Part shown: in pieces, positions 93 to 12,131 of the stretch | How positions within the stretch are numbered: the first letter of the stretch is position 1 | Layout: every line of letters begins with the position of its first letter | The notes under the pieces: generated by a model | What the model was told of the DNA's origin: nothing | Seen by the model: the letters and a program-made list of their open reading frames with translations, nothing else | The model's database searches: none | Position numbers and translations under genes: made by a program | NCBI GenBank assembly: GCA_030141585.1 | Contig: JAQIFP010000072.1 | Location: 1-13,705 of the forward strand | DNA length: 13,705 nt | Source: Ophryocystis elektroscirrha | Taxonomy: Eukaryota; Apicomplexa; Conoidasida; Neogregarinorida; Ophryocystidae | Reading direction: 5' to 3'

Positions 93-3000
93 TCAGAAAC
101 ATAAATTTACACTGTAAATGAAGTATACTAAGCTTTTTTGTTTATTACTTTGTTCATGTGAGTGAGGAAAATCAGTTTGCTTGTATTTAAAAGTAACTGG
201 TTCTTGTTTGGATTCAATAAAATCGTTATGGACTGGCATATATTCTAATTCTGTATGAATTTTATCTAATTCATTCTTTTCTGTGTAAACGTTGTCAAAT
301 AACGTATCAAGGCAGTCATAGGAGTACACTAAGAAAATATTTTTTTTTTTTTTTTTTGGGTTACCGGAGTCTTTTTTAAAAAACGATGGAAGTACTTCCG
401 CTTCTTCCTGCCCATCTATTTGAGGGACATCTTTTCTTAACTCAAGTATGGTCCCTTTTGAGTTCGTTAACCCTGATATTCCAATAAATAATTTTTGACT
501 GTCAGGACTGAAAGTAGCTCCTACGGAGCGACCAAAAAAGTCGGCTACGGTGTATTTTTGAAACTGAGAAGCTACGTCGTACATTGTAACTGTGTCAATA
601 GATTCCACGACAGCTAAAGTTTGACCGTCTGGAGAAAAGGAAACGGCCCTAACTTCTGAACACATACTATCTAATACAAATAAAGAAGATTTTGGATATC
701 TGATGTCCCAAATTCGAGTTGTCTCATCTTGAGAGCCAGAAGCTAGAAGAAAAGAGTTAGGGTCTGGATGCCAAGCAGATGAAAAAGAATAATCAAGATG
801 TCCTTCGAGTTTACAGACACGGCGCCCAGCAGTAGGGTCAAATAAAAATAAAGCCTACATAATTATAAACATTTGAATATATTAGAATAAATTTTAATAA
901 TTTGCATAAACGTTTTGATGCATAGAATTATTAATCTATGGCATACAATAAATACATATAAATACATATATATATATATATATCTAAAGTTATATTTAAC
1001 TATATAGAAAAACATAATTACATGATTTAATATATTATTAAATATATTAATTAATATTCTATTTAATATGTGTCAACTTATAATATAACATTATTTATAT
1101 TTATTTTATTTGTTGATATTAAAGTTAATTATTTATATAAATACAGATAACAAAAATTTGTATATTACTAATATACTATATCCTCAAAAATTTACCTTGC
1201 AGTCAGCTGCTATAGATATAAGACGTCTCGTCTTATTAACAGCCATATGATTTGGATGCCATGGAAGTTGATATAGCCATTTAAGCTTGCCATCTACCGT
1301 GTATTCCGAAATCCCCGCTGAATTAAAAGATATATATAAAGATAAATTGTTGGGATCTACAGATTCAGTCATAAGGGAGTTCGAGGCTTTTTCGATTAAA
1401 ATCGAGTTTATTGTTTCCTCCATATAATCAGTTACACTGTAACCATCTAGAATCTGAATATAATAAGGCAAAACATTATATAAAAAAAAAAAAGAGCTAA
1501 CTTTATATTTATATTTATCTATAGCTAAAATATTTATTGCATTTATTGTGCTTTTTACTAAATAATTTATACCGTTCGTCCTCTCCATGTATTCGATATT
1601 TTTCTAGCAGGCAAAATAGGGTTCACTTTGGTTCTAGATGAATACCAATCAGGTTCATACAAGTAATGAGGACACTGAGTGTTTTTGTGGAATTCAGGTA
1701 ATACACTATCGTCGTCTGGCGTTAAATACATATATTCGTAATTTGGTCCTAAATCAACAACGCTTATTTTTGAATATTCTAATAATCCTGCAGCCACAAA
1801 ACCATAACGGGCGTCTAAAGTGTCAATTTTAGAAGACGAAGCCGATGATGTGGGTCCAATTATTGGAATTGTTCTAAAATTTCAACCTCATTATCACTAC
1901 ACTCACAAATGTTTATAATATATATATGTATATATATATATACTTGATAACATTGTCTATAACTATATATATATATATATACTGGGCATGTAGTAATATT
2001 TTTTTTTTAAAATTACCTCCCAGTAAAGGTATTTAACCCGAAAGTAGAATATTTGTGACAGTAGACGACGTCTACAGAGTTAACTGCAGTAATACAATGA
2101 CGAAGCTATAGAAAAATAGAGCAAAAATAATTGTTTACTTGCGAATGAGTTAAAGTCGGGGGATATGTAGGCATGTAACTTTTCCATATATGGTATAAAT
2201 TGGTATGACTAGATGCAAAGTTGTAATGCTCAGAATGGGAGTTACAGACATCTGCTAATGTCTTTTGAATACTTGGTGTTATAGATATTCTATGTTCTCG
2301 ATCTCCGGGATTGTGTTTTAATCTCAATGTTCTTGTTTGTTTTCTTAGTCGTGGAGTAGACCAGCTAGGAAACTGCTTTTGATAATCTTCTCCATGGGCA
2401 ATGTGATAAGCCTATTATAAAAATGTATTCTTTTGCTCTATTAATTAGTACAAATCATAAACTTACAAACTCTTATTTATTATATAACCAACATAATGTA
2501 ATAAATGTGCTAATACTTATATATATGCACCATATATACCTGATATGTACATTACATATACATCATACATATATCATGTATACATCAATTTTACAATATA
2601 TATATATATATATGTATCATAAATACATCATACTTATATCACATATATATATGCATACATCGTATATACATCATATATACATTATATATACATCATATAT
2701 ACATCATATATACATCATATATACATCATATATACATCATATATACATTATATATACATCATATATACATCATATATACATCATATATATGATCATATTT
2801 ACATCATATATATACATGTATATATTATATACATATTTATAGTTTATATATAATTAATTATTTTGACTGCTATAAAATGATTTATTTATAAAAACGAAAA
2901 TTTATTTTAACGATACAACATACATAGCAAATATACTATATTTTGAGTAAATGTGTATGACGAAAAAAACAGCTGTAAATAATTAAAAACTGAACTTCAT

Positions 3001-4017
3001 AATTAATGATATTTATAATTATATAACAACAGTGATATTATTGCAGATAAAATAATTTACAGTGATGCAACTTGGAATTATAAAATATGAAATGTATCAA
3101 ATTACAGTCAAAACACCAGTATCATGTTCGGAAGTTTCCCAGTGTCGATTGAAGCCAATTCTTCGGACGTCCTCTAAGAACTCCGTGTGTGAAACTGTAC
3201 ATGAGGGGAGCTTTGCTGTATCATCCATAGAATAAAATAAAGAAGCTTTTAATTGAGGAAACGCAGGAAATAATCCATGAGATTCTGGATTTATGGGAGC
3301 TACAGCTGTCATTTGTCTGGAACTTAAATACTGCGTCCAGTTTTTTTGACGTATAAAGGCTTCAGCTGGAATAGTTTCATTGCAATTTTGAGGCCGTTCA
3401 TTTCCAGGGAAACTATCTCTCTGCAATATATTGGAAAAAAGGTTTCTATTATTGCTCATTTCAAATACAGGTAAACTGCCGATATCACTTTGTAATTGCA
3501 CAGAATTATTATTGCGTAAAATGCTGTCTCTACTAAGCCGATTTCTCACTACAGAATGAAGTTCGTCTGTAGCTGTATTAGTCGAGTTTATCACGGACCT
3601 ATTAGCAAGGTTTTCTCTATTACCAGAAACGTTTCGTAAGGTTTCTGTTACGTTACTGGTATTGTACGCATTATTAAAGTTCAAAACGTTCGAAATTCTG
3701 CTCGACAACACGGATTCAGTGTTTTCATTACGATTGTTGTTTCGCAATAATATAATGGGAAGAGTCTCCTGTAAGATCAATGGCTGATTTGGTCTACTTC
3801 CATTTTCACTCGCAGAATATAATAAATTGTTTCTCGAAGGTATTTGAGATTCTCTGTTAGGCTCTAAATCTTCTGTTTCACTGCTAGACGATAAGTTACG
3901 TGGATTTATTTGCAACTCTTCCGTTTCTTCTCTTGAAACAAATTCATCATTTTCTACAGGGTAAAAAGCATCCCTTATAGAAGCTCCAGAATTCCCATCG
4001 CTTAAATCGTTTGACAT
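93..4017 (-). CDS. WD40-repeat protein of the SPAC2A9.03 / At3g13340 family, seven exons
   Basis: Spliced model on the minus strand: 4017-3106 (tentative first exon), 2411-2139, 2105-2017, 1873-1573, 1453-1196, 854-365, 328-93; TGA stop; about 852 residues. Introns are 694, 33, 143, 119, 341 and 36 bp and all phases match. Exons 2-6 follow the order of the plant/fission-yeast family as I remember it: LRHCITAVNSVDVVY, then IDTLDARYGFVAAG, LYQLPWHPNHMA, a clear WD repeat (KLEGHLDYSFSSAWHP ... SQDETTRIWDIR, about residues 626-663), EVRAVSFSPDGQTLAVVES and ADFFGRSVGATFSPDSQKLF. The fold should be a C-terminal beta-propeller serving as a protein-interaction scaffold; its cellular role is not known to me. 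The N-terminal 300 residues and the charged C-terminal tail (after about residue 735) are low-complexity or lineage-specific. Confidence is high for exons 2-6, moderate for exon 1 and the tail. Confidence 0.8.
329..364 (-). other. 36-bp intron (WD gene intron 6) holding an 18-A homopolymer
   Basis: Minus strand: donor TCCG|GTAACC, then 18 consecutive A residues (T340-T357 on the plus strand), acceptor TTTTCTTAG|TG. Phase 1. The length is a multiple of three without a stop, so an ORF finder reads through it as a 12-residue lysine-rich insert. Splicing gives KKDS-VYSYDC. The size and signals match the other ten tiny introns, which is the main argument for calling it an intron. Confidence 0.65.
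855..1195 (-). other. WD gene intron 5 (341 bp), A+T-rich
   Basis: Donor TGCAAG|GTAAAT (GT 1195-1194), acceptor TTATGTAG|GC (AG 856-855), phase 0. It joins IAADCK to ALFLFDP. It contains a short TA run near 965-983; nothing else is visible in it. Confidence 0.8.
1454..1572 (-). other. WD gene intron 4 (119 bp)
   Basis: Donor CGAACG|GTATAA, acceptor TATATTCAG|ATTC, phase 0. It is partly open in the downstream frame, so an uncorrected ORF starts too early (at 1588) and includes intron. Several upstream AGs exist (TTATTTAG, TATTTTAG, AAAGTTAG), but only the last one is preceded by a Y-rich TTCAG. Confidence 0.65.
1874..2016 (-). other. WD gene intron 3 (143 bp) with TA runs
   Basis: Donor GGGAG|GTAATT (GT 2016-2015), acceptor AAATTTTAG|AAC (AG 1875-1874), phase 2, recreating an Arg codon. 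The interior holds two TA dinucleotide tracts around 1918-1942 and 1964-1981. Confidence 0.75.
2106..2138 (-). other. 33-bp intron (WD gene intron 2)
   Basis: Donor TCGCAA|GTAAAC, acceptor TTTTTCTATAG|CTTC, phase 0. Removal joins THSQ to LRHCITAV, matching the family's HFQLRNLVWA-like segment. Read through, it ends in an in-frame TAG. Confidence 0.85.
2412..3105 (-). other. WD gene intron 1 (694 bp, inferred) with minisatellite
   Basis: The acceptor at 2413-2412 is well supported by the exon 2 frame; the donor at 3105-3104 depends on the exon 1 inference. The interior is A+T-rich and carries an 11-bp tandem repeat. A long plus-strand open frame here (2423-2842) is only translation of that repeat. 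Confidence 0.55.
2654..2790. repeat. 11-bp minisatellite, unit TACATCATATA
   Basis: About twelve near-perfect tandem copies of TACATCATATA on the plus strand, with two copies carrying TTA instead of TCA. It lies inside the inferred first intron of the WD gene. As 11 is not a multiple of three, all frames cycle and give a spurious Tyr/Ile/His-rich open frame. Confidence 0.9.
3106..4017 (-). CDS. Probable first exon of the WD40 gene: Asn/Ser-rich N-terminal region
   Basis: This open frame starts at ATG 4017, with an in-frame TAA six codons upstream, and stays open to TGA at 3097-3099. It is rich in Asn, Ser, Glu and Arg with no recognisable domain, so probably disordered; the end (EFLEDVRRIGFNRHWETSE) is more ordered-looking. 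Five codons after that segment, and two codons before the stop, lies a phase-0 donor (ACT|GTAATT, GT at 3105-3104). WD exon 2 has a phase-0 acceptor (ATAATAG, exon from 2411), no in-frame Met at its start, and needs an upstream exon. Joining the two gives one open frame. The alternative is an independent intronless 306-residue protein with the WD gene starting elsewhere; I favour the joined model. Confidence 0.55.
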
Positions 4018-4591
4018 ACTATTTACACATTTTTATTTTTAAAATTAACTCTGCCAGACCTATTAATTTCTTAAAAACTAAATAAATAAATTTTCAGTAA
4101 ATTTTTACAAACCAATTTATAATTTTAACCTATCATTGTTGATTTAATTGTTTATTTATTATTTTCAACACATCACAGGTTTTTTTATTTTAATTCTAAG
4201 TGGTGAGTGTATTTTTTTAATTATGAGGCCATACCTATATATATTCCCAATACAGTATGGTTACATTTATTAATCTAAATTTAACTCCATCATAATACTA
4301 ACTTTACGGAATAAATTAGTAAAGTTAGCTTCGCTTGTGGAGAATATCATCTGATTTTCTTTAATATTATAGTGTGCTTTTATATATTGTATGCAAAAAA
4401 AAGAAAATCGACAATAAAGTATTTCACTTCTATAAATAATTGAATTAAAACAAAAAGCATAAAAAATTTTTTAACAATAATTTCTATTATTTATTGTTAC
4501 AAGCTATTAAAATATATTATTATAAATTAAATAACGTTATTTTTTATAAGTCGAAAAAAATTGGATAAAAATAATTATAATTTACTAAAAC
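4018..4591. other. Intergenic region between CTU1 3' end and WD gene 5' end
   Basis: 574 bp between the CTU1 stop (TAA at 4594-4592) and the WD start, both genes on the minus strand. It is A+T-rich with many A/T homopolymers. It should hold the CTU1 polyadenylation region (a minus-strand AATAAA is near 4488-4493) and the WD promoter. I see no defined promoter motif and no credible gene. Confidence 0.6.
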
Positions 4592-7153
4592 TTAACGCGC
4601 ATATTCAATATCAATACGTTTAGATCGTTTGTGTATTTCAAGAGGATTGGGTAGTTTTTCCAAACTTTCAACCATTTGGCAAGGTTGGCAAATATCGTAA
4701 GAAGTTAAACCGCTGCACTTCTTACAGGATTTAAGTTTGTCATGTTCTATTGTATACTGTTTTGCTTTTAAATGGAATGTTGCTATCAAAAGATTTTTCA
4801 CAAATTGCGGATTACAACGTTCAAGTACTTTAACAAATCCTCTAAATAGTATTAAAATTGATACAATTTAATTAATTATAATATTTAAAACAATAAGCAA
4901 AATTACATGTATTATACATTACGTGTATATATATATTTTTATTAGTATCAGTAAAATGTAACTTTATTACTGCTTATAACTTATCAATATAGCGTATTTT
5001 ACCTAGCACTGTTTCTGTATGCATTTTTAGCGTATTTACACTCCATAGAAAAATAAAGAAGTTTTTTGAAATGTGCGTATAAAACAATTTCTTTTTGTGA
5101 AGAATTCATTAAAGGTTTACATCTAAAATGTGATATATATTGCTCAGTTAATTACCTAGGTATTCGGGAGTTATTTTCGCGCCCTGTTATAACTCCGGAG
5201 CATCTTATAAATCTGTTTATATCTCCTCTGAATACTGAAAATATGATATATTGTCAAATTCTCATTAAATCCTATTATATAGGTATAATATATAGGAGAA
5301 ATTTTATTTAAATTCAAGCTAATTAAGTAGTAATATCGATAAATATAATACTCTAATATAATTGAATACCAAAACGGTATATATAATAATTACTTGGCTT
5401 TATTTAGTAAAATTCTTATCTCTTACTATTTACACTGACTAAATGTACGTACTGTTAAAAAATATGTTTGTATATGGACCGTATTGCTATATAAAATAAA
5501 ATACTGCAATTACCATGTACTCTATGCCTGATTGACTATAGCAATAATATGCAATATATTTGTATAACCTATTTTCAAAGTTATCTGTATGTATAATAAT
5601 TAATTAAAATCATTTAATAATAACTTTGCCTAACTGTTAATCAAAAAAGTTTCTGCAGCGTCGTCTAAATTGTGTCCTGTGCATAATTTTGAAGCCTATT
5701 TGTAACCTTATATAGCAAATTTTTACCTGGAAAGACTCAGCTCCTTTATCCATAGCTTTTCGTCGAAATACACCGCAATATGTGCCTACATAAAAATGTA
5801 TCACATGGAGCAGATACAGTTATGTTTTTGTCCAATCTTGTTGACAACGTCATCCATAGTGTACCCATACAACTCCTGAATATAGTTGTCTTTATTATAA
5901 GGCTATTAAATAACCAAGTATCTAGACACTACCCTATTTTCACTAATTTAAGCAAACTTTATCGCTATAAAAACAACAAATAAATACAAATTTGGTTATC
6001 ATAACATTTAATATCAAGCTAATACCAAGTCATTCATGAGAACATACCGCAAAAGATTTAACAACTAAGGGTAATCCATAGTCTTCTTTATTACAATTTA
6101 CTGTCACCAAAGATGCATCACGGTATGTCTAATGATCTTTTAAACAGAAATAGCTACCGCAATTCCTTCATCTATAGCTAAAAGTCTCAAATCTAGTCCA
6201 TAATCATAACGTTCATTTAAAAGTTTCAAAATGTATGCAAGAACAGTAGAATCTAATAAGAAATTACATTAGTATAATAATAATCTTATAATTAGCTGTG
6301 CATATATATATGACTATATGTACATATTTAATTATATATATACATGCTTATATGTAAATGTGTATATATTATGATATATATTATATATATATATAATATA
6401 TATATGCATATATAAATTATTTGATGTATATATTTATATATAATTATACTTATATATGCACATGTAGGTAAATATGTATATATGATGATATGTATATACA
6501 TATGATTATATGTATATGTGTATATATAAGTAACAATATATAATGTATATATATATATGATATATATATATATGATTATATGTAAACGTGTAGATATAGA
6601 TATATGTATATATGTTTAAATATATATATATATATATGTTAATATATAATTATATGTATATATATCTGTATATATATGTATATACATATGATCATATGTA
6701 TATGCGTATATTGCATATATATATATATATGTATATATGATGATACAAATATATGAATCTATATATACATATCATTATGTGTTTATATACATAAATGTAT
6801 ATTCATATAAATGTATGCATGTTTTTGATCGTATAGGAGATTATATATCATAAATTATTTATTTGATTAGACAGATATAGTTTAAATCTGTATTTTTATG
6901 TTATTGTAAGTTTATTTATAAAGACGATAAACTTATTGATTAATATATCTTGAGTCAAAGTAAATAAACTACCTTTTCCTCCGGAGACTGCAACAGCTAC
7001 TCGATCTCCTTTTTTAAATAAATTATTTTTAACAATAGTTAAATGTACTTCTTCCTCAAAATCCTTGAAAAAACAACTGGCACAATGAAGCTGCTGCGAT
7101 TTAGTGCGTTTTATTTGAGGAGCTGCACTTTTACAAATAGCACACAGCACCAT
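4592..7153 (-). CDS. CTU1: Cytoplasmic tRNA 2-thiolation protein 1 (CTU1/NCS6), nine exons, complete
   Basis: CTU1 (Ncs6, TtuA-like) with CTU2 transfers sulfur from Urm1 thiocarboxylate to C2 of wobble U34 in tRNA-Lys, -Glu and -Gln, in the cytosol. Exons on the minus strand: 7153-6973, 6252-6158, 6128-6048, 5875-5818, 5785-5727, 5695-5635, 5234-5156, 5122-5003, 4841-4592. All phases agree and give 327 residues (family usually about 350). Visible: N-terminal zinc pairs C4xxC7 and C24xxC27; PP-loop SGGKDS (57-62) split by intron 1; IDEGIATYRDASL; NCTYCG with C139 and C142; [10 protein letters not shown] (165-174); FRGD; RCKPL with C206, the third expected Fe-S ligand; C-terminal pairs C284/C287 and C296/C299. 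Introns are 720, 29, 172, 32, 31, 400, 33 and 161 bp. The start is fixed by an in-frame TAG four codons upstream. It is divergent from the TRAPPC11-like gene. Confidence 0.95.
4842..5002 (-). other. CTU1 intron 8 (161 bp)
   Basis: Donor GCTAG|GTAAAA, acceptor TACTATTTAG|AGG, phase 2, recreating an Arg codon before GFVKVLE. It is plain A+T-rich sequence with one short TA run. Confidence 0.85.
5123..5155 (-). other. 33-bp intron (CTU1 intron 7)
   Basis: Donor CCTAG|GTAATT, acceptor CACATTTTAG|ATG, phase 2. It restores the conserved R-CKPL segment that carries the Fe-S ligand C206. Read through, it gives an immediate TAA. Confidence 0.9.
5235..5634 (-). other. CTU1 intron 6 (400 bp), unusual donor
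   Basis: Acceptor TATTTTCAG|TATTC is followed by FRGDINRF; the donor that fits is AACA|GTTAGG, phase 1, giving Ile. This is the only donor in the three genes that does not start GTA. The interior is A+T-rich and I see no further exon in it. Confidence 0.75.
5696..5726 (-). other. 31-bp intron (CTU1 intron 5)
   Basis: Donor TTCCAG|GTAAAA, acceptor TACAAATAG|GCTT, phase 0. It joins GAESFQ to ASKLCTGHN. There is no pyrimidine tract before the AG. Confidence 0.9.
5786..5817 (-). other. 32-bp intron (CTU1 intron 4)
   Basis: Donor ATAACT|GTATCT, acceptor TTTATGTAG|GCAC, phase 1. It splits the codon of C139 in the NCTYCG iron-sulfur motif, so without splicing the motif is lost and the frame meets a stop. 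Confidence 0.93.
5876..6047 (-). other. CTU1 intron 3 (172 bp)
   Basis: Donor TTTGCG|GTATGT, acceptor CTATATTCAG|GAG, phase 0. It joins VVKSFA to ELYGYTMDD, as expected for the family's SYKDLYGWTMDE segment. The plus-strand open frame over this region is a shadow. Confidence 0.88.
6129..6157 (-). other. 29-bp intron (CTU1 intron 2), smallest in the window
   Basis: Donor ATTGCG|GTAGCT, acceptor GATCATTAG|ACAT, phase 0. It joins IDEGIA to TYRDASL, matching the conserved SIDEGISGYRDDSL-like segment. The length is not a multiple of three and includes a TAA in the incoming frame, so retention would abolish the enzyme. Confidence 0.93.
6253..6972 (-). other. CTU1 intron 1 (720 bp), mostly TATA-rich simple sequence
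   Basis: Donor GGAAAAG|GTAGTT, acceptor TTCTTATTAG|ATTC, phase 1. It falls inside the PP-loop, between Lys60 and Ser62, splitting the Asp61 codon. Roughly 6300-6820 is TATAT/ATGTATA simple sequence with no strict period; I see no gene in it. Confidence 0.9.
6300..6820. repeat. Degenerate TATATG/TATACA simple-sequence block
   Basis: About 500 bp composed almost only of TATA, ATGTAT and ATAATT words, without a fixed repeat unit. It lies wholly within CTU1 intron 1. Confidence 0.8.
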
Positions 7154-7166
7154 ACCGGCGTACTAA
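7154..7166. promoter_or_regulatory. 13-bp spacer between divergent start codons
   Basis: The spacer ACCGGCGTACTAA separates the CTU1 start (CAT, 7151-7153) from the TRAPPC11-like start (ATG, 7167-7169). It has a G+C-rich core, CCGGCG, unusual in such A+T-rich DNA. In-frame stops precede both starts, so neither frame can extend across. Any promoter elements must overlap both coding regions, or the messages have almost no independent leader. A regulatory role is inferred, not shown. Confidence 0.5.
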
Positions 7167-10100
7167 ATGGTTCTAGAAACTTTTGTGCCAAAGTGTTTTT
7201 TGCAGCCTCCAATACCTCAGGTTGCCGTTATTGGTACAGAAGAGCTCAATTTTAACATTAAAGCGCTTCTTAAACAGCAGTTGGAGAAAAATAAAAAACA
7301 ACTTTATTCCAGTTTCCAAATAGCAACTGGTACTTTAAATCAATGGACTGAGCATTGGAATCAAATAAATTTCGAGTCTAATTTGCATGAATTGCAGATA
7401 GACAAATTCAGGTGTTTATCTATTGAATGGATGGACGTATTTATAAGGAAATTTCCTTCCTTAATTCTTTTGTTATATGATTTTCAAAACTACCCTAAAC
7501 ATGTTTCATCAAACTGGAAATTGAATCAGATAAATGCAGCTAAAACCATGCAAAGTGCTGCAATGGAAACCTATAATGCTGTAAAAAATGACTTTGCAAA
7601 TTATGCGGATAAAAACGCTACAACATGGACTCAAAATAAATTTATGCCTCGAATACTTCCTGTATTTATCTTTTGCTCATTTACTGATGAGGCTTCCATG
7701 CCTTTGGTCGATCTTCAAGGTGTTTTTAACCCCATTTCTTCCCATAAAGACACCTTTGACACTAAAGATGCCGTTTTTATCACTAGCATTCAAGATATTG
7801 ATATGTAGAAATATAACGGATGCACTAAATAAATGTACCTTATGCACGTATTGCTAATAATATCTGTTATATGCAGCAGTCACTCATAAAAAAAATATTA
7901 TCTTATCAATAAATTATATTCTCAATACGTAATTCGCATATATTACACATCAAAAATATACTACATTAGATTCTAATTCTATGTACATGCAATAAATAAT
8001 TTGTACCTTGATAAGACACTCTAAATAATAGTCTAAATAATTACTGATTTTTTTTGTATCACTTGTATTAATGGATAAATGGTATCATCGAATAATAAAT
8101 ATGAATTTTAACGTTATAAAATCTATTACAAGTCCAACTTTAGATACATATATATATGTATATATATATATATACTTGTATATACATGTATGTATTTATG
8201 TGTGTCTGGATATGTACATATATGTGTATATATGTGTATATATGTGTATATATGTGTATATATGTGTATATATGTGTATATATGTGTATATATAGATATA
8301 ATTTTGCAAATTTATATATTTATATATGTGTATACACATATGTATATTTATCTATATGTGCGTTTAAGTATATTTATGAAAATTTAAATATTTATATATG
8401 TATATAAGAATATAAACATATATATATATATATATATGTCTATATCCTTATTCTAATCATGTATATATATATCTGTATAAATAAAAATATATCTATAAAT
8501 ATGTATAAACTGATAAATATTTTATAGGGATTAATTATGTATATATCATATACATATAATATATATGTATAAAGAATTGAATTTGAATAAATAAAATATT
8601 TTGAATAATTCATTAACATAATATATATTGTAATTTCACGATAAGTTGTTATGTAGAAATAGTTGTGATTATATATAATAAAATTTTGACCGATTTCTTT
8701 TAGGTTTGTAACTATGATTCAAGACTACATATACAGCTATCATTACCAAATAATGGAAGTGATCAGAGGTTATTTGCAATACCCGGAAAAAATGATAGAA
8801 ATTGAAAATAAAGAAATTTGCACTGTAAGTTTTTTTATTATAAACTTATAAATACAGGCCGTGCTACAAACGGTTCTTGGATTTATAATGGAATTTGTTT
8901 CAGATGTAACTATGTCGTTGAAAACATACGTGACAGCGTGGAAAATGTTATACAACGAAACTTTCTTGGAATCTATTCAAAAGTTAACAGTAAAAAAAAT
9001 AAATTAGAAAATAAATTTAATACTTTTTGCAAAAATTATTGAGCTTTGTTATATATTAATAGTTGTGTAATTTTCTTAGTTTCCGTATGTACCAGTTATA
9101 CATACTACACAATAATCCACAACGTGCAATTTATCATGTACAACCCCACCAAGGTATTCTTTATTATTTCACCTATAAAACTTAGAGTTACTATCAAGTA
9201 TCGTAGACAAAGAAGATCAGAGAGAGCTTCGTATACTAAAAATCCTATGGATTAGTTTAGCCAGATTTTATATTGGCGAATTAATTCAACCAGATTTTAT
9301 TAATCACAAATGTGAGACAACATATTTTGACCACCCTACTAAAGTTGTATCCCGTATGTTTAATGTTGTTTGATAATTATGAAATTAGCATCGGAATTTA
9401 TTCCTATTAATATATCTATAGAGAAATTATTTACCCAGGCTATATATACAGCTGCATTTTTTCAGTATATGGTAAATTCTTGAATGTGTCAAGATTAATA
9501 TTCAGAAAGCGTATAAGTTAGCGCATATATGTGCAGTTATGCTCACAGAAAACACATTAAATGAGACTGTAAAATCTATAAGCAGTTATAATATAACCTA
9601 CGTCATCGATTTTCTTATATACATTGTATACAAAATAAGCAGAAACTACTTACAACAGGTACTTTTATTATACAATAACAAATTATGACTATATTTATAT
9701 ACACGTGCATCAATATTTTACTTGAATTTGGAAGTTATTGTCTTAATGCAATAAATATTGTATAACTTGTTCCTATATACACCTACACATACTACAAAAT
9801 CTAATTATGCATAATTTTATTGATATTTTCTCTATATTACACATTTATTTATGTATATTATTAGCATACGCTTAATTCTAGCGAATGTTATTTATTTTAT
9901 CAAAATCTATTTATATAAAATATATATATAAACTATATATATAAGCTATATATATAAGCTGTATATATATATTATATATAAACTATATATATATATATAA
10001 ACTATATGTATAAGCTATATATATATATATTATATATATTGTATATATAAGCTATACATATATACTATATATGTAAACTATATATATAAACTATATACTA

Positions 10101-12131
10101 TATATAAAAACTATATATATAAGCTATATATATAAACTATATATATATACTATATATGTAAACTATATATATAAACTATATATATAAATTATATATATAT
10201 ATATATATATATTTAGTTTGTGTTTTTATCATAAATATTATGTAAGTAGAAACTTTTGTATTTTAGAATCCGAGCTGGCCAAATCACCGATGGAACATAA
10301 TTTGGTTATTGCAACTTGCTAACACATTATGTGAGTTTTATGTCACTGACGAAGCTTCAAAAATATATTATTACATATTACAATTTTTACTGCAAAACTG
10401 TTATTCAAAACCTTCCAAAGTAAATCCAAATCCCATTCAGCTGTAATAAAAATAAAGTCACATTTGAGTTAGGTTCACTGATAATTTGGAGACAGTGCTA
10501 AAGCGATATTTGATGTGTATATCCAACTCCACTTTAGAGAGTACTCAAAGAGTATCAAATATACACTATAGGATGTCAAAAGACACCGAAAATTATATGA
10601 AAGAAATATGTTTGAAGTTTATAGTATCTACCGGCTATTCTATTAATATAGACCCTAATAAAAATCAACTTATTATATTGGGATTAATTGCGTGCTATCA
10701 TTTCAAGCCGAATTTAATAACTATACCTCTGAAAAATATTGGAGAATTAATAACACTATATAGTAAAGATGACACCCATACATCTAAATATGAAATATAT
10801 TTCCCATATATATATACATTTATATATGAAAATAATTTATACGCCATTAATATGTACCATATAAATTTTCCTGTCAATATATTCGCTGTACAATGTGATT
10901 CTGGTGCTTTATATTTCCAGTATACTCAAAGAAATAATTTTGAACAAGTATCATCTTTAGGTATTTAGCTGTCAAATTAATTAAATAATCATAGTAACTT
11001 ATATAAACCACCATTTATAAATGAAAATCAAATAGTTTATCAAATTTTACACTGTTATGCTTGATACTTAATATTATAATCACGTTAATGGTTACCTTAT
11101 GTTAATACTTGCAATTATATGCTTGATAATATAAAAATTTATATAATATGTATATATAAATTTATTATATTTGTATTTAAAACTAATAATATATAAGTAT
11201 ATACATATAAACATATATACATATATACATATATACATATATACATATATACATATATACATATATACATATATACATATATACATATATACATATACAG
11301 ATATATACATATATAGAGTTATACATTAATACTTATATGAATATACATATTTATAAATATATATATATATATATATTTATGTTATTATATATATATATAT
11401 TATTTATTTAATTGAATAAATTTAGGTAATTTAATTGCTGAAGATACACCATTTATTTTGGAGCCGCACACTTGGTCCAAGTTATCTTTATTATCGCTTG
11501 AAGCCAGCCATAATATTTCAAGTATAAAATTCAGGTCGATACGCTTAGGTAATATCAAAATTTGGCTAAAAAGTAATTTTACTTATTGCCCTAACGACCT
11601 TTACAAAATACAACCGTATATACCTTTTTCTCTTGAAAGTCCCAAACCGGTTGATTCCATAGATCAAATACTAACGTATCTCACTAAAATGGATTTTGAC
11701 TACCTTACGAAATATTTATCTACTTTATATCCCAATTGTAACAAGTTAAGTTCAGCTTTTTCTAATACTTACTTGAAAACATGTAAATCATTTAACCGCA
11801 CACAGCTCCTTACATCAATATATTCTTTTCTTATCAAAAACCCGGAATACAAAGATTCCTATAATTTATCTTATGAAACTATACAAGCTTATCTTCCTGA
11901 ACTTTACCATTATTGTTTTTTTCATAAACAGCCGTATTGTTACATATATCCTTCAATCGACGTAAGACTTGAAGTCCAATTATATAATAAAAATCCTGAT
12001 ATATGTGTACTCGTGAAATAAAAAATTCATATATTATTTATTAAATTGTAATAATTTTATAATAAAAAACTTACTTGAAAGTTATATAATATATTTAATA
12101 TAATATATTTATAGTACCTATCATGAGCTTG

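Follow-up and report, generated by a model that had tools for sequence, protein, structure and literature searches.

Known classes of very short introns

Narrow classes of very short introns have been described in several eukaryotes, and a class of about 29–41 bp is reported here from a stretch of Ophryocystis elektroscirrha DNA 13,705 bases long (positions 1–13705 of contig C88, one of the 118 contigs of an 8,008,172-base assembly; hereafter the window) and from other contigs of the same assembly. The closest described system is that of Porospora cf. gigantea, in which a genome of 8.8–9.0 Mb with 54% G+C carries introns of 25–30 bp (mode 28 bp) that make up 71–72% of all introns; in these introns the adenine at −6 from the acceptor is strongly conserved (PMC9250747). 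The present class resembles it in being narrow and very short and in belonging to an apparently gregarine-side apicomplexan. Unlike the Porospora introns, those described here span 29–41 bp, with a mode of 31 bp according to the gene finder or 33 bp in the homology set, and are without the adenine at −6. In contrast to the GC-rich Porospora genome, G+C is 26% in the window and 29.3% in 200 kb of contig C1. Short introns are the majority class in Porospora, and here they account for 47 of the 67 introns tallied in conserved genes, a count obtained mostly with a length prior that favours 28–41 bp.

Among ciliates, Oxytricha and Stylonychia have a class with a mean of 33–36 bp and a standard deviation of about 3, together with further classes at 48–51 and 78–80 bp (PMC5014332). 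The likeness lies in a short class standing beside longer introns in one genome. However, lengths divisible by three (3n) are depleted in these ciliates, whereas 18 of the 47 short introns here are 3n, a count affected by biased detection (PMC5014332 for the ciliates). As for apicomplexans, Babesia microti has 20-bp introns with a consensus similar to that of Porospora (as cited in PMC9250747); it is thus another apicomplexan with very short introns, but a piroplasm and with shorter ones. Theileria parva and T. annulata have AT-rich introns in two length classes with modes at 55 and 80 bp (PMC2612703), which is comparable to the present case in lineage, composition and the number of classes, although the modes differ. 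Stentor introns are 15–16 bp long and GT-AG, without a strong branch consensus and with a branch adenine nearly fixed in position (PMC9505925); mikrocytids have introns of 16–17 bp and chlorarachniophyte nucleomorphs of 18–21 bp (PMC10245619). The introns described here share with Stentor the GT-AG ends and the absence of a strong branch consensus but, unlike Stentor, have no fixed branch adenine, and all three of these groups have introns that are narrow in length but shorter than here. For neogregarines or Ophryocystis, a literature search at the level of listings found no published report of intron lengths.

An earlier reading of the window from its letters alone (the original prediction) had described the combination of very short introns with long, satellite-filled ones in the same genes as unusual. 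With comparable classes in print for Porospora, Oxytricha and Stylonychia, the combination is less unusual than claimed. Narrow classes of tiny introns are already known, and the present class is a further well-supported example.

Short introns in the CTU1 gene

The genes of the window were rebuilt independently from the sequence, and the gene for CTU1/Ncs6 was spliced by hand. Its product belongs to the PP-loop family according to Pfam, matches TtuA-type thiolase structures and has a best database match with 51% identity across 96% of its length. The gene and its eight introns, all supported by alignment to homologues, are as follows.

4592..7153, minus strand: CTU1/Ncs6 gene, 327 aa, hand-spliced, with introns of 720, 29, 172, 32, 31, 400, 33 and 161 bp
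6253..6972, minus strand: intron of 720 bp, phase 1, within the SGGKDS P-loop, with an AT satellite at 6302–6802
6129..6157, minus strand: intron of 29 bp, phase 0, within the conserved DEGI..YRD segment
5876..6047, minus strand: intron of 172 bp
5786..5817, minus strand: intron of 32 bp, phase 1, falling within the codon for Cys in the NCTxCGVFRR segment
5696..5726, minus strand: intron of 31 bp, phase 0, immediately ahead of the TGHNxDD segment
5235..5634, minus strand: intron of 400 bp with the donor GTTAGG
5123..5155, minus strand: intron of 33 bp, phase 2, within the R-x-KP segment
4842..5002, minus strand: intron of 161 bp

Aligned with 10 CTU1 homologues, the spliced protein is gap-free at 8/8 junctions (four of short and four of long introns), and invariant residues are intact near both sides of every junction. 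The alignment of junctions to homologues that had been proposed along with the original prediction thus shows no gap, and the claim that the four short introns in conserved segments are close to certain is borne out. Judged from the sequence, these four can be taken as proved by homology, which is the best evidence attainable without RNA.

The start of CTU1 (7153, minus strand) and that of a 213-aa open frame (7167–7808, plus strand) are divergent, with 13 bases between them.

The short class beyond the window

The gene finder used for the wider survey is a simple one, trained on long open frames and run on 200 kb of contig C1. In the first design it had a flat length prior, GT..AG ends only and three penalty settings, with eight decoy dinucleotide pairs as a control; in the second, likewise without a length preference, splice-site matrices were learned separately for each rule (GT-AG and seven decoys). 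A prior favouring 28–41 bp was used for the homology genes of C1 and for chaperonins; the CTU1 model is the hand-spliced one. The finder is blind to stop-free introns of length 3n.

In the first design, introns of 28–41 bp number 82, 49 and 25 at the three settings, against 10–22, 5–14 and 4–11 in the decoys. With matrices the excess is larger (104 vs 4–13 in seven decoys), and the mode is 31 bp. No excess is seen with matrices at 42–60 bp (12 vs 7–21 in decoys) or at 61–250 bp (120 vs 91–129); when the latter range is split, there are 32 introns at 61–100 bp and 88 at 101–250 bp, compared with 22–31 and 67–98 in decoys. Since the gene finder does not distinguish long introns from decoys, these are known from homology only. 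On other contigs, 22 short introns are predicted vs 2–6 in decoys, in a set of 16 loci from 11 contigs that includes two overlapping pairs. The short class is present on at least nine contigs. The original prediction of a narrow class is supported by its recurrence in nine C1 genes and in chaperonins on other contigs, although the class reaches about 41 bp and does not end at 36.

A run allowing introns of up to 1500 bp was dropped as a model, as it chained almost everything into one gene; its output still peaked at 29–36 bp (54 vs 9–12 in four decoys). A count of the pattern GTANGT-N22-AG across the genome gave 452 matches vs 716 in the reversed control, which is no excess, and the pattern is too weak to be used alone.

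Some of the predicted models on C1 deserve mention in their own right. L021-L022 (125661–136572) and L023-L024 (148497–159610) give predicted proteins of >3,000 aa and are possibly fused neighbours; one of the two has no predicted 28–41-bp introns and the other has twelve. L017 (85472–88548, minus strand) contains repeats that by eye resemble alveolin, a protein of the inner membrane complex, and this model may fuse several genes.

Introns in conserved genes

Homology beyond CTU1 was evaluated in nine genes of C1: PRPS, UBE2K, MCM, AspRS, SpdSyn, TYW1, RUVBL1, RPE and NMT. In these, 33 of 43 predicted short introns (28–41 bp) and 7 of 10 longer ones fall inside ranges matched by Pfam, a solved structure or a close relative; for MCM, SpdSyn, TYW1 and RPE the match is a Pfam range and not residue by residue. 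Removal of the introns also rejoins conserved protein in the alignments of NMT, PRPS, UBE2K, AspRS and CCT-gamma. The donor in the nine genes is mostly GTA, with GTT and GTG occurring as well. Two more short introns, stop-free and missed by the finder, appear as insertions in the alignments of PRPS and UBE2K. In PRPS (24066–25700, plus strand) the in-frame intron is 33 bp long and its retention would add 11 residues; in UBE2K (44048–44868, minus strand) it is 30 bp long and would add 10.

A search for the chaperonin family gave matches on nine contigs, with adjacent matches 16–43 bp apart in 11 cases and 7 of 9 genes; these spacings only approximate intron lengths, as some matches run into each other and others stop early. 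The CCT-gamma gene on contig C31 yields a 538-residue alignment to solved CCT-gamma (4b2t_G), which contains 8/8 of its predicted short introns; the Pfam domain takes in 7 of these. This gene also has introns of 44, 54 and 68 bp.

Taken over 14 genes including CTU1, the tally of introns inside domains (n = 67) comprises 47 of 29–41 bp (median 33), 4 of 44–68 bp and 16 of 114–720 bp. Two chaperonin models, L038 and L041, with five introns between them, were not checked against the family once spliced, and their long introns disagree with the spacing of the chaperonin matches. Without these two, 62 introns in 12 genes are divided into 47, 3 and 12, respectively. The short share is an upper-side estimate, because most models were obtained with the prior favouring 28–41 bp. 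As for the bimodal length distribution proposed originally, it is supported by the homology set only: with the gene finder, introns of 42–250 bp do not rise above decoy level, which counts against a proof of bimodality by that route.

The other genes of the window

Two more genes of the window contain short introns. In the protein of gene 1, residues 623–661 match Pfam WD40 above the cut-off, and related propeller models stay below theirs. The introns of this gene and two further candidates are listed below.

93..4017, minus strand: gene 1, 864-aa WD40-repeat protein (gene finder), with introns of 694, 33, 143, 119 and 341 bp
2412..3105, minus strand: intron of 694 bp (gene finder), with an 11/22-bp AT satellite at 2521–2852
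2106..2138, minus strand: intron of 33 bp, phase 0, frame restored, outside the Pfam-matched domain
1874..2016, minus strand: intron of 143 bp (gene finder)
1454..1572, minus strand: intron of 119 bp (gene finder)
855..1195, minus strand: intron of 341 bp (gene finder)
329..364, minus strand: candidate intron of 36 bp, GTAACCC-A18-TATTTTCTTAG, 3n and stop-free in frame
3864..3899, minus strand: other 36-bp candidate, in the first exon, GTA..AG, 3n and stop-free in frame

Seven GTA..AG segments of 36 bp are listed in the window, and the one meant by the original prediction is likeliest to be that at 329–364. Both this segment and that at 3864–3899 may be coding instead of intronic, because their lengths are 3n, their frame is open and no homologue is available to decide. 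The A18 run itself (in the coding sense) occupies 340–357, towards the 3' end of gene 1; it is in frame and would be a lysine run if translated.

The third gene becomes an open frame once eight introns are removed. A Pfam search with its protein gave no convincing match (best E 0.089).

8714..12021, plus strand: third gene, 635 aa, with introns of 33, 73, 32, 35, 34, 698, 30 and 465 bp
8825..8857, plus strand: intron of 33 bp (reading frame only)
8990..9062, plus strand: intron of 73 bp (reading frame only)
9154..9185, plus strand: intron of 32 bp (gene finder, reading frame only)
9354..9388, plus strand: intron of 35 bp (gene finder, reading frame only)
9472..9505, plus strand: intron of 34 bp (gene finder, reading frame only)
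9569..10266, plus strand: intron of 698 bp (gene finder, reading frame), with a 13-bp/TA satellite at 9907–10212
10443..10472, plus strand: intron of 30 bp (gene finder, reading frame only)
10961..11425, plus strand: intron of 465 bp (reading frame), with a ATATATAC satellite at 11189–11376 and AT-satellite sequence spanning 11189–11404

For the last of these introns the gene finder picked another acceptor (11548).

Thus, of the eleven short introns originally proposed, ten lengths were re-derived with support from the frame, whereas the 36-bp one is in frame, stop-free and may be coding. All ten start with GTA, end with AG and occur in phases 0, 1 and 2, as had been stated. Coexistence with longer introns in the same genes is likewise seen, these being 73 bp and 119–720 bp in the window. 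The claim that removal rejoins recognisable protein stands for the four CTU1 introns, but that of gene 1 lies outside the domain and those of the third gene restore the frame only.

Splice signals

Across all predicted introns the donor is AG|GTAA with a weak G at +5, and the acceptor is (T/C)AG|G. The 5' end of the U1 small nuclear RNA (snRNA), AAACUUACCUGG, is complementary to the donor consensus. Short-intron interiors have 19% G+C, and the enrichment of T to 55–61% at −5 and −4 is a weak pyrimidine signal. Acceptor surroundings look similar for predicted short introns and predicted long ones, the long set being no larger than in decoys.

Apart from one weak exception, statistics bear out the absence of a convincing branch site noted originally. 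Of 107 introns, 36% have adenine at −6, a share that falls in the 25–45% range of the other interior positions, and no fixed branch adenine is found near the acceptor. Among 255 introns from the short-favouring run, the branch-site consensus yTNAy occurs 262 times vs 260 expected, and an expectation-maximisation motif search reaches a log-likelihood of 24, compared with 27–34 in three simulated controls. The sole excess in the same 255 introns is that of TTGAT (29 vs a Markov expectation of 18.9) with overlapping words; the flat-prior run (107 introns) gives 16 vs 8.1 for TTGAT and 11 vs 3.7 for TGATTT. TTGAT fits yTNAy and may mark a weak branch site, although few of the introns contain it, and a degenerate site may be present.

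Splicing machinery and lineage

U1 and U6 snRNA were found once each in the assembly, and a 5' part of U4 was found at the end of the piece of sequence searched. SF1 was found, as was Prp8, with its central domain in one open frame.

With regard to lineage, a tree of RUVBL1 built from 120 listed matches pairs the query with one sequence at support 1.0. This pair lies in a clade of nine tips (support 0.996), among them four Cryptosporidium and one Selenidium sequence, going by source names, and two eukprot transcript entries. The closest relative among the matches listed is P0121 (76% identity across 448 residues), which possibly comes from another gregarine-side parasite. The placement of CTU1 is ambiguous, as the matches listed include animals, fungi, Chromera and a ciliate. 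The solved relatives of NMT and UBE2K are presumably apicomplexan, and only one of the chain names given for them points to Toxoplasma. The source organism thus looks like an apicomplexan on the gregarine/Cryptosporidium side. An origin from a piroplasm was considered and is disfavoured: no Theileria or Babesia name stands among the 120 listed matches in either protein search, most rows being nameless, and the reported Theileria intron modes are 55 and 80 bp (PMC2612703).

Interpretation of the short introns

The short segments are almost certainly ordinary U2-type GT-AG spliceosomal introns, apparently compressed to a near-minimal length of about 29–41 bp (median 33) and standing beside a minority of longer ones, several of which are swollen by AT satellites. 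Their spliceosomal nature, as originally claimed, is supported by the excess over decoys, the U1-complementary donor and the homology of CTU1. Recognition would proceed by intron definition: U1 would bind the donor, SF1 and the U2 small nuclear ribonucleoprotein would settle on whichever adenine of the AT-rich interior is suitably placed, and the nearness of the following YAG would itself be a signal, so that a near acceptor is used. If so, little sequence information would be needed beyond the two splice sites. Intron definition appears likeliest because U1, SF1 and Prp8 are canonical and only two signals are visible.

Several observations weigh against this explanation. The gene finder is rough, with CTU1 introns exact in 5 of 8 cases under short-favouring settings, and the short-favouring prior inflates the short share in the C1 genes and the chaperonins. 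In the RPE model only five bases separate two of the introns, and the model is possibly wrong there. Because the protein of the third gene lacks a convincing Pfam match, its five short introns have the open frame alone as support. Finally, U2 snRNA was not found with the Rfam model, which was scored on 46 of 713 candidates and was silent on the controls too. A pattern for its 26-base branch-binding core has zero matches with up to 3 mismatches, and one for a 19-base core, at the same tolerance, has 6 vs 3 in the reversed control, none listed as U2 at E up to 1. A motif of the small-subunit ribosomal RNA, allowing 1 mismatch, has no match in the assembly either. The plain reading is that U2 is absent from the assembly, since this motif is missing too, and the assembly may be incomplete. 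An alternative has branch-site recognition largely lost, with a changed U2 core, a length ruler for short introns and an exon-defined route for long ones; U2 would then have escaped detection because its branch-binding core is changed. This is very unlikely.

That the introns are artefacts, bridging frameshifts left by assembly or sequencing indels or by decay of a pseudogene, is hardly credible. The sequence is indeed AT-rich and repeat-rich, and an A18 run lies in the 36-bp candidate. However, such bridges of 28–41 bp have GT-AG ends, with 82 vs 10–22 in eight decoys and a like result on other contigs, and invariant CTU1 residues are intact on the flanks of each cut. Practically nothing can be given to the idea of ciliate-like internal eliminated sequences cut from the DNA, or of segments skipped by the ribosome. 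The shortest eliminated sequences of ciliates do overlap this length range, but the ends here are GT..AG (GTA..AG in 10/10 introns of the window) with a U1-complementary donor, where TA repeats would be expected for eliminated sequences; RUVBL1 falls among apicomplexans, and long GT-AG introns interrupt the same genes.

Two further alternatives accept that the segments are spliced. Homology of the short class to the 25–30 bp class of Porospora, with its branch adenine fixed near the acceptor, seems improbable: both genomes have 8–9 Mb, both apparently belong to gregarine-side apicomplexans and a narrow class of short introns is common to them, but the mode here is 31–33 and not 28, and the frequency of adenine at −6 (36% of the 107 introns) is within the range of the other interior positions. 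Somewhat better placed, although still doubtful, is the use of two recognition modes, in which the short class would be recognised by intron definition and the long, satellite-bearing introns by exon definition. The scarcity of introns of 42–113 bp in the homology set (4/67, or 3/62 without the two unchecked chaperonin models) would suit it, whereas the similar acceptor surroundings of the predicted short and long sets, the latter no larger than decoys, speak against it.

Significance

With the compact spliceosomal introns described above, one more apparent apicomplexan joins those whose introns approach the lower size limit, and it is seen that such a short class need not carry a fixed branch adenine as in Porospora. 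These introns also bear on how splicing can find an intron in which no branch site is visible.

For this genome, annotation that bars 30-bp introns would be expected to break or lose genes. The default minimum intron length of TopHat is 70 bp. In the genome paper of Ophryocystis elektroscirrha, for which RNA-seq of an infected host pupa exists, the RNA mapping for scaffolding is given with a maximum and no minimum intron length, and the word "intron" occurs once in the main text, as this mapping limit (PMC10210345). Complete benchmarking universal single-copy orthologues (BUSCOs) amount to 72.2% in the RNA-guided gene set vs 79.1% in the official ab initio GeneMark-ES set (PMC10210345). The low published count of 2,591 protein-coding genes in Ophryocystis is possibly in part an artefact of missed short introns.

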